Below, in pieces: positions 2,564 through 17,593 of a stretch of 43,460 nt of DNA. The first letter of the stretch is position 1. Each line of letters opens with the position of its first letter. The DNA is from Verrucomicrobiota bacterium (GTDB lineage: Bacteria > Verrucomicrobiota > Verrucomicrobiia > Chthoniobacterales > JAFAMB01). The notes beneath the pieces are model-generated. The model was not told the origin of the DNA. It searched no databases and saw only the letters and a list, made by a program, of their open reading frames with translations. The position numbers and the translations under genes were made by a program. The DNA is taken from NCBI GenBank assembly GCA_019247695.1, contig JAFBAP010000110.1, positions 1-43,460 of the forward strand. The letters are read 5' to 3'.

Positions 2564-2824
2564 TCAGGGTCGATCAGGTGATTCTGGCTTTTGGGATTGT
2601 CGCGCTTTGAGAAAGGCGATGAGTTTTAACCCAATGGCCAGGGACGGTTCAGTCCGCCCGTTCAGCCAGTCAGTGATTCGGGACGGCTTTACCCCAAGGG
2701 CGTTGGCGAGTTCGATTCGCCGCCCGTATTTTTCTTCGCACCACTCCCGGACTTCTCCCAAAAGCTTGGCGACTTTCGGATCTGGTTTTCTCGGGAGTTT
2801 CGGCGGCATGTTGATGGCTGCCAT
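2564..2824 (-). CDS. Small HTH (XRE-like) protein, third of three paralogues
   Basis: An 86-residue protein built as a LPRKPDPKVAKLLGEVREWC helix region followed by a helix-turn-helix, IELANALGVKPSRITDWLNG, and a short hydrophilic tail. It is clearly paralogous to the next two genes upstream on the same strand. By alignment with its neighbour the ancestral start is probably the second ATG (2809), because the five codons before it match the untranslated leader of the neighbour. It lies 7 nt after the stop of the preceding paralogue. It is probably a DNA-binding regulator; its target is unknown. Confidence 0.7.
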   Translation of the reverse strand: MAAINMPPKLPRKPDPKVAKLLGEVREWCEEKYGRRIELANALGVKPSRITDWLNGRTEPSLAIGLKLIAFLKARQSQKPESPDRP

Positions 2825-2831
2825 TTAGGGC

Positions 2832-3071
2832 TCACTCGGACGTTTCCGAACTTGGAGGTTGTTGCGCTCTCAAGAATTTCTGGATTCGAAGCGCGATTCC
2901 TAACGACGGCGCCGACCTCCCTGCGAGCCACTCGCTTACCCGGCGTTCGTCCACGCCGAGCGTATTCGCCAGTTTTCTTTGCCGTCCGTACTTTGCCTTA
3001 CACCACGTCCGCAGCTCGTTGATGAACTGTTCTACCTCGGGGTCGTGGCCTCGGGGGAGCTTGCGCGGCAT
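2832..3071 (-). CDS. Small HTH (XRE-like) protein, second of three paralogues
   Basis: A 79-residue protein with the same plan as its neighbours: MPRKLPRGHDPEVEQF, a WCKAKYGRQ segment, a helix-turn-helix (KLANTLGVDERRVSEWLAG), and a C-terminal amphipathic stretch ending in SSETSE. It is separated by 15 nt from the upstream paralogue and 7 nt from the downstream one, consistent with one transcript started at the palindromic promoter near 3450. Confidence 0.7.
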   Translation of the reverse strand: MPRKLPRGHDPEVEQFINELRTWCKAKYGRQRKLANTLGVDERRVSEWLAGRSAPSLGIALRIQKFLRAQQPPSSETSE

Positions 3072-3086
3072 GTTGGTGGCTGCCGG

Positions 3087-3401
3087 TTAGGGCTGATCGG
3101 GGGTTTCCGGATTCTGGGCTTGCTGCGTTTGGAGAAACCTCAGGATACGCAAGCCCATGCCGAGTGACGGCTCCGTTCTTCGTGCGAGCCAGTCATTTAT
3201 CCGTTTCCTGTCAACTCCCAGGAAGCGCGCAATCTCGCTTTGGCGTCCATATTCTTGGTCGCACCAAGCCTTCAAATCGTCGAGCAGGCGGGTTACTTCC
3301 GGGTCGGGTTCCCTCGGGAGTTTTTTGGGTGACACCGCGGGAGTGTACGGAAGATGAGGACGGTCTTTCAATCCTCGGGCGGGATCAGTTTGGGTCACCA
3401 T
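3087..3401 (-). CDS. Small HTH (XRE-like) protein, first of three paralogues
   Basis: I chose the ATG at 3401 (104 residues) because AGGAAA lies directly before it and a consensus promoter lies about 50 nt upstream; the frame stays open further upstream but would run through that promoter. The conserved core is KKLPREPDPEVTRLLDDLKA, then a helix-turn-helix, EIARFLGVDRKRINDWLARR, then a helical tail. Compared with its two paralogues it has an extra N-terminal segment of about 26 residues. It is likely to be the autoregulator of the cluster (inference). Confidence 0.7.
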   Translation of the reverse strand: MVTQTDPARGLKDRPHLPYTPAVSPKKLPREPDPEVTRLLDDLKAWCDQEYGRQSEIARFLGVDRKRINDWLARRTEPSLGMGLRILRFLQTQQAQNPETPDQP

Positions 3402-3443: not shown

Positions 3444-3479
3444 TGTCCTTATTATAAGGACAGTATGCCGTAGAAGCAA
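3444..3479 (-). promoter_or_regulatory. Consensus promoter overlapping a perfect palindrome, likely operator
   Basis: On the minus strand a TATAAT hexamer (3456-3451) lies 17 bp after TTGCTT (3479-3474). The -10 box is the centre of a perfect 9-bp inverted repeat with a one-base centre, TGTCCTTAT-A-ATAAGGACA (3444-3462). The arrangement fits a repressor dimer occluding the -10 box of the HTH operon. It could also control the rightward ORF starting at 3543. Confidence 0.65.
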
Positions 3480-3542
3480 AACGGCCCGAGCTGGCGCAGT
3501 CAACGCCAAACCCGGGCCTAAACCGACCCATGAGGATAATTC

Positions 3543-4004
3543 ATGCATCGATCGGCAATTCTTTGTAACGCCGTCCGTGCGGATGGCAACTTTAACGGTT
3601 CGCTAAAGGCGAATAATCCTAACGGCTGCCGTTTCCCCATCGGGAGCATCGTCGTCAGCAAGAACTTGAATTTTCTCCAGGTGACCGGCCCCCACAACCG
3701 CCCGGCGCCTGGCCGAGCGGGAATACGACACGGTAAAGTTCCACGACTTGGGCAAAGGCGTGGTGGTCGACTTACCCAGGTCGAACGCACGCCCGTCCCC
3801 GGCCTTTTTTTGCCCGGTTCGAAGTCCAAAAAAATCCGGCGCACCTATACCCCTTGGAACGGTTGGCCCTTGCCGAGCGGGCGTTTTGTCCCCACGGTGG
3901 TGTCCGATTCCAATAAGGCGTTTCTGTTCTCGATCGGGAACGTTGCTGTGGGCGCATTTTCAGGTTCCGCGCGAGAGGCTTGGGAGGAGGGAGACGGGCG
4001 ATGA
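3543..4004 (+). CDS. Unknown protein, possibly frameshifted in the middle
   Basis: The 153-residue frame has a protein-like start (AVRADGNFNGSLKANN, PIGSIVVSKNLNFLQVTGPH) and end (TYTPWNGWPLPSGRFVPTVV, AFLFSIGNVAVGAFSGS), but a strange arginine/glycine-rich middle. Between about 3710 and 3775 another frame gives a more natural sequence, AEREYDTVKFHDLGKGVVVD. This suggests a compensating pair of frameshifts in an originally continuous gene. No family recognised. It is divergent from the HTH operon. Confidence 0.35.
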   Translation: MHRSAILCNAVRADGNFNGSLKANNPNGCRFPIGSIVVSKNLNFLQVTGPHNRPAPGRAGIRHGKVPRLGQRRGGRLTQVERTPVPGLFLPGSKSKKIRRTYTPWNGWPLPSGRFVPTVVSDSNKAFLFSIGNVAVGAFSGSAREAWEEGDGR

Positions 4005-4131
4005 ATCCTGGTATTTCCCTTTATCAGCCCGTCTCTTCTCTGGAAGGGAAGTCCCCTGACCCCCTCCGGTATAAGGTTGGGACGTCCTAACCTCCCCCCA
4101 CTCGACGTTTTACCAAGTCATTTCTCCGGGC

Positions 4132-4383
4132 GTGGCTCGGCGGCTGAGGACGTTGATCGATTTTGAGCCGAACGTGTTCGACCTGGGTCGGGGCTTGCGG
4201 TTTGTTTTTCGGGGCCACGAAAACCCCCTTCCCGGGCTTTTTGACCCAAGCCGCCGTCCGGTCAAGGTTCGGCCCTCCTATGCCTTGTGGGACGGGCGGG
4301 ATGTGGTCCAGGAGGTATCCCGGGGCGTTGAACTGGTTCGGCAAGCCGTCGAACCCGTGCAGGGGCGCTACCAGGCGTTTTGA
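4132..4383 (+). CDS. Unknown 83-residue protein, followed in frame by a membrane segment
   Basis: The frame reads MARRLRTLIDFEPNVFDLGR, then GLRFVFRGHENPLPGLFDP and DVVQEVSRGVELVRQAVEP, and ends in a TGA at 4381. After this stop the same frame continues without a break as a membrane anchor and soluble domain to 4673. It is either the first of two genes or one gene split by a nonsense change. No family recognised. Confidence 0.35.
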   Translation: MARRLRTLIDFEPNVFDLGRGLRFVFRGHENPLPGLFDPSRRPVKVRPSYALWDGRDVVQEVSRGVELVRQAVEPVQGRYQAF

Positions 4384-4437
4384 AAAGCGGGGCGCGGTTG
4401 GCTGATCGCCCTTATAGCGGCGGCGGTAGCCCTCCTG

Positions 4438-4671
4438 GTGGCCGGTGCCTTGCTGGGGTACCACGCGGCCACCGAACGGTTCGAGGCACGGGTGGTCGGG
4501 ACGGCCGGGACGGATCGCCTGCAGTCCATGCTGGCTCAGGTGGGCGGCTCGGCGCGGTACGCGGGCGGTGGCCAAGTCGTGCTGGACCCCGGCCGGCTTG
4601 CGGTGAGCGGCGCGAGCGTTCGGGACGGGAAAGCCGTCATCGCCCTCTCGTCTCCGGGGTTGACCCGGTGA
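4438..4671 (+). CDS. Unknown membrane-anchored protein (start uncertain)
   Basis: The open frame begins right after the TGA at 4381 and reads WLIALIAAAVALLVAGALLG, one transmembrane helix, then an alanine/glycine-rich soluble part (TDRLQSMLAQVGGSARYAGG) to a stop at about 4671. No ATG precedes the helix. The GTG at 4438 lies inside the helix, so the true start is more likely an alternative codon near 4400, or the frame belongs to the preceding ORF. The one-helix anchor plus small domain resembles many phage or island proteins, but no family was recognised. Confidence 0.35.
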   Translation: MAGALLGYHAATERFEARVVGTAGTDRLQSMLAQVGGSARYAGGGQVVLDPGRLAVSGASVRDGKAVIALSSPGLTR

Positions 4672-4749
4672 TTTACGGTAAGGCACAAAAGGGGGATGTA
4701 TCGGTATTGTCTGTGATGCTATACGTTGTGTGGAAACCTGTCATTCCCA

Positions 4750-4970
4750 TGAAAGCCCTCGTGCAAGAGCTTCAGACCTACCGAGAAAAATTGCCCAGCT
4801 TGCTCCCGGAGGAAGGCAAATTCGCCCTCATCCGCGGCGACAAAGTGGTCGGGACGTTCGACACCTACGCCGACGCCCTTGGGGAAGGCTACCGGCTTTT
4901 CAAGCTCGAGCCGTTCCTGGTTAAACAAATCCAGGCTGTTGAGCAGGCGCACTTCATCGCCGCCGCCTGA
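4750..4970 (+). CDS. Small conserved protein, partner of a retropepsin-like protein
   Basis: The ATG at 4750 gives 73 residues: MKALVQELQTYREKLPSLLP, then KFALIRGDKVVGTFDTYADA and EPFLVKQIQAVEQAHFI. I recognise this as a small conserved hypothetical family (pattern LIHGDxVVGTFDTYADAL...EPFLVKQI) that is usually encoded next to a retropepsin-like aspartyl protease homologue. The decayed neighbour at 4991 fits that pairing. It appears intact. Function unknown. Confidence 0.7.
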
Positions 4971-5434: not shown

Positions 5435-5911
5435 ATGTCACCTCGCGCGAGACAAAACATGCAAAATATCGGTGCTGCGCTGCTGGGAATCCAGCTGGTC
5501 GAACACCATTTGGACGTTTGCCTTCACCTTGCCTTCCGGGACAAGGATCACCTTTCAGCTCAGGAGATAGAGAATTTAGGTCGCTTGGAACGTCACGAGA
5601 CGCTCAGGAACCTGCTTAAACAACTCCGGGCCAGGACCACGGTGCCGACCCAACTTGACCTCGTTTTGAGCAAATTCCTGGATGAGAGAAATAAATTCGT
5701 GCACCGCCTCTTTGAGACTGGATTTCACCTGGACGAAGATCCGGGCGCCGCGTGCCTGGGACAATTTCTTGAGGAGATGATCAAAGAGACGCGCAGGCTG
5801 ATTGAGCTCTTCACGGCGGTTCTGGACCATAAAATGGTACGCTCTGGGGCGCCCCTCGAGCAATGGCCTCCGGACGTTAAATGGCTCTTTGATGGCCCGA
5901 TCCGGGATTAA
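5435..5911 (+). CDS. Unknown helical protein with HEPN-like RNxxxH motif
   Basis: A 158-residue, largely helical, soluble protein. The centre reads LVLSKFLDERNKFVHRLFET, so RNKFVH fits the R-x4-6-H motif of HEPN-superfamily ribonucleases, placed after a long helix as in those folds. Upstream is an acidic helical region (SAQEIENLGRLERHETLRNL) and downstream another helix (LGQFLEEMIKETRRLIELFT). It stands alone, without a recognisable antitoxin. HEPN membership is inference from the motif and predicted helices. Confidence 0.55.
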   Translation: MSPRARQNMQNIGAALLGIQLVEHHLDVCLHLAFRDKDHLSAQEIENLGRLERHETLRNLLKQLRARTTVPTQLDLVLSKFLDERNKFVHRLFETGFHLDEDPGAACLGQFLEEMIKETRRLIELFTAVLDHKMVRSGAPLEQWPPDVKWLFDGPIRD

Positions 5912-6772: not shown

Positions 6773-6924
6773 CCGGGAAGAAAAAAAGGCGCCTGCCTAA
6801 CCCCATTCACCGGCATCCAAGGGTGGACTTCGGGAGACACGGTAGCCGATTTGTTAGCAGGTTGAGCCGGAGCCCGTCGCTTGGAATGCGCAATATGCTG
6901 GCGATGAAAAGGTTGCGATAACCA

Positions 6925-7012
6925 CGGTGAGGGCGGGATTCGAACCCGCGGTACCCTTTTGGGGTACAACGCTTTAGCAAAGCGCCGCTTTCGACCGCTC
7001 AGCCACCTCACC
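6925..7012 (-). tRNA. tRNA-Ser (anticodon GCT)
   Basis: The minus strand folds as a class II tRNA. The acceptor stem is GGTGAGG/CCTCACC with discriminator G, the anticodon stem GCGCT/AGCGT closes the loop TTGCTAA (anticodon GCT), a long variable arm has stem GTACCC/GGGTAC, and the T arm is GCGGGTTCGAATCCCGC. CCA is not encoded. Its 3' end points into the accessory region at 1-6900. Confidence 0.95.
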
Positions 7013-7226
7013 AGCGGGAGGGACCAAGGCTAACCGCACCCACCAGGGACGTCAAACGAAACCTCACCGGCCGGTACGGCAGGGCTTGTCTCGGTCACTT
7101 CATCAGGTCCAACCGGGCTGCGTACAGTTCGCCTTGCTTCCGCCACTTTCGACGCCAGGCTTTTTTGGTTATATTTTCTCGCCTGAGCGCTGATATGATT
7201 ATACACCGGTTCTCCCACGCAAAGCT

Positions 7227-17562: not shown

Positions 17563-17593
17563 GCGGCCGGCCCTCCAGGGCCGGCCGCGGTTT
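17563..17593 (+). terminator. Rho-independent terminator
   Basis: A perfect 11-bp stem, GCGGCCGGCCC (17563-17573) and GGGCCGGCCGC (17578-17588), with loop TCCA, is followed by GGTTTTCTG. It lies about 75 nt after the secreted-protein gene and before the convergent DUF4142 gene. Confidence 0.85.

Follow-up and report, generated by a model that had tools for sequence, protein, structure and literature searches.

Three tandem helix-turn-helix genes

The window analyzed here is an entire contig of 43,460 nt from a genome of the order Chthoniobacterales (Verrucomicrobiota). Three paralogous genes for small helix-turn-helix (HTH) proteins, here called A, B, and C, lie head to tail on its minus strand (Table 1), as the preliminary description of this DNA had claimed: all three reading frames are open and intact, the gaps measure 15 nt (A-B) and 7 nt (B-C), and a search of the genome with A recovered both B (E = 1.0e-23) and C (E = 1.1e-28). 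Beyond B and C, that search gave no further copy in the genome at E ≤ 1e-3; a looser 13-row profile (A2) reached three additional weak places on other contigs (1.0e-5, 8.5e-5, and 4.7e-4). Gene C has an alternative start at a homologous ATG at 2809, from which the product would be 81 aa long and the B-C gap 22 nt. The N-terminal extension of A is absent from B and C. Over the 78 ungapped codons of the core, identity is 0.50 (A-B), 0.54 (A-C), and 0.47 (B-C), and 29 columns of the three-way alignment are invariant. The shared motif plan described earlier, including DPEV and EPSLG, is present but looser than had been stated, with DPKV and EPSLA in C and APSLG in B.

Table 1. Coordinates of the genes and sequence features discussed in the text
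Feature	Position	Strand	Remarks
Gene A	3401-3087	minus	104 aa; first in array; HTH_3; N-terminal extension of ~23 residues
Gene B	3071-2832	minus	79 aa; paralogue of A; HTH_3
Gene C	2824-2564	minus	86 aa; paralogue of A; HTH_3
40-nt junction repeat, copy 1	3055-3094	minus	Last nt of A, first nt of B, and the 15-nt gap between them
40-nt junction repeat, copy 2	2793-2832	minus	Last nt of B, first nt of C, and the gap between them; 85% identical to copy 1
19-bp palindrome TGTCCTTATTATAAGGACA	3444-3462		Perfect; 9-bp arms, 1-bp center; proposed operator
TATAAT, proposed -10 box	3456-3451	minus	Inside palindrome; read directly from sequence
TTGCTT, proposed weak -35 box	3479-3474	minus	17 nt from TATAAT; 3/6 consensus letters; read from sequence
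GC-rich hairpin, then short T run	3483-3518	minus	Upstream of promoter; possible insulating terminator
tRNA-Ser (gct)	6924-7013	minus	3' end faces unaligned DNA; proposed boundary
ISKra4-family transposase	2-971	minus	Split over two frames; contig edge
Plasmid pRiA4b ORF-3-like protein	1712-1155	minus	PF07929, 55 bits
Divergent region	3543-4671	plus	Two related units, the first apparently split by frameshift, then a protein bearing a hydrophobic stretch
73-aa protein	4749-4967	plus	Nine relatives

All three proteins match Pfam HTH_3 (PF01381) above its gathering cutoff of 23 bits (A, 24.4; B, 27.0; C, 33.7). Scores fell below the cutoff for YdaS (PF15943; A, 19.0; B, 23.8; C, 19.0 bits; cutoff, 30) and for the RstR phage repressor (NF041951; B, 19.6 bits; cutoff, 80), to which A and C had no match at 0.01. 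The lambda-repressor-like helical fold with an HTH was judged on A alone, in a predicted (AF2) structure with helices at residues 34 to 49, 53 to 61, 65 to 72, and 80 to 96, block pLDDT values of 86 to 95 over residues 31 to 90, and a low-confidence N terminus. Among solved structures, the trio profile matched CylR2 (2.7e-4), a Bacteroides DNA-binding protein (9.5e-4), and a designed DNA-binding protein (0.0036), with homeobox chains and others from 0.15 and P22 c2 at just 0.49; the family profile A2 matched CylR2 (6.3e-6) and P22 c2 (1.7e-4), with homeobox chains from 0.016. Foldseek on the A model likewise returned CylR2 (probability 1.00; E = 0.13) and P22 c2 (probability 0.98; E = 0.34). 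By a structural aligner whose own warning is that Z values of this size are common, HNF-1 chains (Z = 8.2 to 9.3), the MuB N-terminal domain (8.0), and POU-domain chains (7.8) all scored above CylR2 (7.0) and P22 c2 (6.6). The fold comparisons point to nothing more specific than a small HTH protein. A defense-library match of C to PDC-M64B, in two weak rows (0.0048 and 0.0066), was not credible.

The recognition helices had been described as different, and the predicted third helices do differ by position: RKRINDW in A, ERRVSEW in B, and PSRITDW in C. Invariant in this region are W71, L72, and R67 (A numbering). Going by the predicted fold, residues of helix 3 would be those touching DNA.

The duplicated unit is the gene plus its gap, according to an alignment of the units. 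An untranslated leader had been reported as duplicated. What stands is a 40-nt junction repeat common to the starts of B and C, with copies whose starts are spaced 262 nt; the DNA preceding A does not match it in the unit alignment. With 2824 as the start of C, the repeat lies partly within the coding sequence of C (MAAINMPPKLPR). B begins 15 nt after the TAA of A and in the same frame. The 3' ends of A and C are also in the same frame in the unit alignment, and B differs from both by an additional nucleotide close to its end, which brings a slightly early stop. Compared with the identity of the junction repeat, the coding cores share just 15 to 21% of codons. Nei-Gojobori estimates over the 78 codons gave dN values of 0.40 (A-B), 0.37 (A-C), and 0.45 (B-C) and dS values of 2.3 (A-B) and 1.9 (A-C), with B-C saturated. 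For the two computable pairs, dN/dS was 0.17 (A-B) and 0.20 (A-C); dS this high makes the ratios imprecise, and their direction is clear. Since synonymous sites are near saturation and dN/dS is low, these are old tandem duplicates encoding constrained proteins. Third-position G+C is 0.59 to 0.68 in the trio, against 0.78 and 0.72 in two other genes of the window.

Palindrome and proposed promoter upstream of gene A

The palindrome upstream of A, already noted in the preliminary description, is real and perfect over both arms. An inverted repeat with 9-bp arms arose in 55 of 20,000 mononucleotide shuffles of the 141 nt upstream of A, and in a second test the score of the palindrome was reached in 0 of 300 shuffles. 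The whole window holds seven perfect inverted repeats with 9-bp arms and spacers of ≤6 nt, three of them overlapping at 17564-17566, so one somewhere in the window is expected. No second site was found in the 5.19-Mb genome with up to three mismatches allowed. This weakens the earlier suggestion that each protein may bind a different site and makes self-repression the best reading of the palindrome.

A promoter for A likely overlaps the palindrome, judging from the hexamers listed in Table 1. The palindrome would then span about -18 to +1 relative to the proposed transcription start, and an AGGA lies 2 nt ahead of the ATG of A at 3401. A promoter scan with a threshold of four matches per hexamer did not list the TTGCTT/TATAAT pair and listed a different candidate at 3371-3342. 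Farther upstream, the 80-nt stretch that holds the hairpin (3463-3542) had a z score of -3.46 on the minus strand, with 1 of 200 shuffles as good, and of -1.14 on the plus strand; the hairpin at 3483-3518 was absent from the list of a terminator scan.

Among the 12 upstream regions tested (the window and 11 relatives), 0 of 300 shuffles reached the observed score in the window and in one relative alone. In that relative (L043), a single-copy HTH gene on the minus strand (ORF 8610-8311) is preceded, 25 to 4 nt before its ATG, by a 22-nt perfect palindrome that holds a TATAAT. The other regions gave 1 of 300 (L045, a GC-rich repeat), 12 of 300 (L044), and 88 to 292 of 300 (the remaining eight). 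An upstream palindrome as a family-wide feature is therefore unsupported, with 1 of 11 relatives convincing, and a stricter rule applied to 10 of the 11 had the same outcome. By eye, the neighbors of the L043 gene resemble respiratory-chain genes.

Surrounding DNA and relatives in other genomes

The window aligns to a genome of the same genus (G001) from 6913 rightwards, that is, from 11 nt beyond the 3' end of tRNA-Ser, and the DNA left of 6913, including the trio, had no DNA match in 10 other genomes of the family. From the position of this boundary, the DNA with the trio was likely inserted at the tRNA-Ser 3' end. The window contains the tRNA end just once, no integrase was recognized among the ORFs scanned, and the contig stops before the left end is reached. 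At five loci in relatives, the flanks of the same tRNA are 282 to 2,273 nt long and unlike both the window and one another, except for 130 nt common to two loci of one genus. Since the flank is variable in relatives too, the homology boundary may reflect a general loss of synteny and no insertion peculiar to this genome; the variable flank may be either a hot spot for integration or simply a place where synteny ends across the family. We therefore treat insertion into the tRNA as likely and not as established.

The surroundings had been called decaying, an impression that agrees with our reading, in which frameshifts appear to break both the transposase and a gene of the divergent region. The transposase at the contig edge is probably the reason the assembly stops there. 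The two units of the divergent region are related to each other (a 25-residue match with 44% identity and E = 4e-5 in one frame, and a weaker 46-residue match, 0.014, in another), so tandem duplication seems to have occurred on both sides of the promoter. The region had no Pfam match at 0.1 and, in the three frames given, no PHROG match at 0.1; a single-sequence structure prediction for the unit at 4102-4380 was useless (pLDDT 39.6). It is possibly a former target of the repressors, and because its genes look broken, no present target is visible beyond the trio's own promoter. Relatives of the 73-aa protein (43 to 61% identity, one over just 28 residues) occur in Bryobacterales, Burkholderiales, Latescibacterota, and other genomes; the frames that follow this gene are presumably broken retropepsin-like frames. 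ORFs 5435-5911 and 4132-4380 had no confirmed relative among viral contigs. At 1e-5, the DNA of the window had one match among phage records, in the tRNA part, and six among plasmid records, five at 129-435 in the transposase and one at the tRNA. Between C and the next ORF (2161-2563), a structured RNA was considered and rejected (z = -1.33 on the minus strand and -1.92 on the plus strand, 3 of 100 shuffles as good); Rfam gave no family there at E = 1.

Relatives of the trio were sought in overlapping sets of 57, 384, 213, 387, and 252 genomes, with scoring in the last four capped at 14 to 26 candidates for each genome. Profile A1 matched 8 of 57 relatives at 1e-3 and 7 of 384 genomes of the class at 1e-5, the trio's own genome being included in both counts. 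At 1e-7, profile A2 matched 13 of 213 genomes of the order, the own genome with three copies and the other twelve with one each, and 24 of 387 genomes of the phylum; at 1e-6, it matched at least 129 of 252 genomes in the family of G191, with copies dispersed among the matches listed. The array, which the preliminary description had proposed to look for elsewhere, did not recur: relatives were single or dispersed, and no second array was found in the 57, 384, 213, and 387 genomes or, among the matches listed, in the 252. Within these sets, the outcome counts against the preliminary description, which had named homologues that occur singly and never in arrays as one half of its refuting condition. 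Genomes with two or more copies had them dispersed, and the closest pair by eye among the matches listed was ~10 kb apart (G821, L081). In a local scan of 51 loci, some of them repeats of one location, L081 alone had a second, separate copy, 10 kb away, and L020 had a weak second domain (0.27) inside one protein. Three side-by-side copies are unusual among the genomes searched; the protein type itself and the proposed mechanism are ordinary. We found no description of this three-gene array in the literature searched, although an earlier account may exist. Pattern searches of genome contigs and viral contigs gave no confirmed relative. When C was searched by tblastn at 0.01, plasmids had no match and phages had two, both weak and partial, at 2e-3 (annotated as a transcriptional regulator) and 4e-3.

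Neighborhoods outside the family of G191 were read at 11 loci (L038-L045 and L049-L051), and the PHROG comparison covered the neighbors at L038, L041, L042, L045, L049, and L050. Clear phage or mobile neighbors appeared at four loci: L045 has genes for a tail tape measure and for tail assembly, L050 has one for scaffolding, L041 has an antirestriction protein together with an XRE-type repressor, and L049 has a transposase, an anti-repressor, a ParB-like protein, and a repressor. The relative at L049 lies downstream of the repressor, in the same direction and opposite the anti-repressor, a position like that in a lysogeny module; in G174, two copies of this kind, scoring equally, sit on separate contigs. 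Weak cases were L042 (HNH endonuclease) and L038 (helicase-like). No PHROG matched the long, tape-measure-like ORFs at L050 and L042. The family of G191 (L067-L086) appears to hold a large, dispersed family of small HTH genes, with at least seven copies in one genome, and in most of these 20 loci a TP(L/M)WN segment precedes the HTH.

Interpretation of the trio

With modest confidence, we interpret the trio as a Cro/CI-type autorepressor cassette that was triplicated and kept, on DNA probably inserted at the tRNA-Ser 3' end and perhaps once mobile. One ancestral gene would have undergone two tandem duplications, and the copies would have diverged under purifying selection. Transcription would begin just downstream of the TATAAT at 3456-3451 and read through A, B, and C as one transcript, with translation of the three probably coupled. 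The products would dimerize, with helix 3 entering the DNA groove, and a dimer on the palindrome would cover the -10 box and the start site, blocking RNA polymerase and holding the operon low. The same repressors may once have controlled the divergent genes from 3543. Possible values of keeping several copies are dose, mixed dimers, or different readers.

An unlikely alternative to a set of redundant copies is a combinatorial one, in which homodimers and heterodimers differ in affinity or half-site preference and act as a switch that is graded or buffered. In its favor, the copies diverged under selection, their predicted recognition helices differ while W71, L72, and R67 of A are invariant, and heteromers of paralogous XRE proteins from Caulobacter and its phage phiCbK were demonstrated by two-hybrid assay (PMC10688885); by analogy, mixed dimers of the trio are possible. 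Set against this, the sole strong operator candidate suits a homodimer, being symmetric and occurring just once in the genome. We consider quite improbable the fuller version, a three-protein repressor on a tRNA-adjacent element, whose homo- and heterodimers would share the self-controlling operator and, via their differing recognition helices, read further sites as a graded switch.

It is also rather doubtful that the array is a functionless remnant whose frames are open merely through shortness and recent decay. The split transposase nearby, the apparent frameshift in the first divergent unit, the extra nucleotide near the end of B with its early stop, and the lack of a DNA match to the trio in the 10 other family genomes would all suit a remnant, but low dN/dS across a long divergence indicates selection during most of the trio's history, and the promoter palindrome is perfect. 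Antitoxin-like regulators of the HigA/HipB type, their toxin partner lost or never present, are a very improbable explanation: HipB is among the fold and profile matches, but the weak matches to the HigA model (TIGR02607; A, 0.0066; B, 2.3e-4; C, no match at 0.01) score 16.3 and 20.9 bits, far under the NCBIfam cutoff of 47.7, and no toxin family was found among the neighboring ORFs scanned.

If the trio is an autorepressor cassette, the tandem retention of three diverged minimal repressors would offer a natural test of what duplication brings in dosage, mixed dimers, and new specificity. The trio and its proposed operator occupy less than 1 kb, which is small enough for complete laboratory testing. 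Repressors of the P22 c2 and lambda-Cro type share with it HTH_3, a four-helix core (predicted here), and a palindrome over their own promoter (a proposed one in the trio, with binding likewise presumed). In contrast to them, the trio has no C-terminal CI domain, no visible lytic or lysogenic partner, and no recognized phage genes among the neighboring ORFs scanned, and it comprises three tandem copies instead of one. CylR2 of Enterococcus faecalis, the best profile match among solved structures, is similarly a small stand-alone HTH regulator (66 residues). It is a single-copy gene. Unlike the trio, it controls cytolysin expression and lies in another neighborhood, and it has 30% identity to A in the structural alignment. 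The XRE paralogues RtrA, RtrB, CdxA, CdxB, and TgrL of Caulobacter and phage phiCbK resemble the trio as a radiation of paralogues in genomes and phages, although they are described in separate conserved neighborhoods, with the word tandem absent from the main text, whereas the trio is tandem (PMC10688885). Their DNA-binding domains are 64 to 80% identical (PMC10688885), compared with 47 to 54% over the core of the trio.
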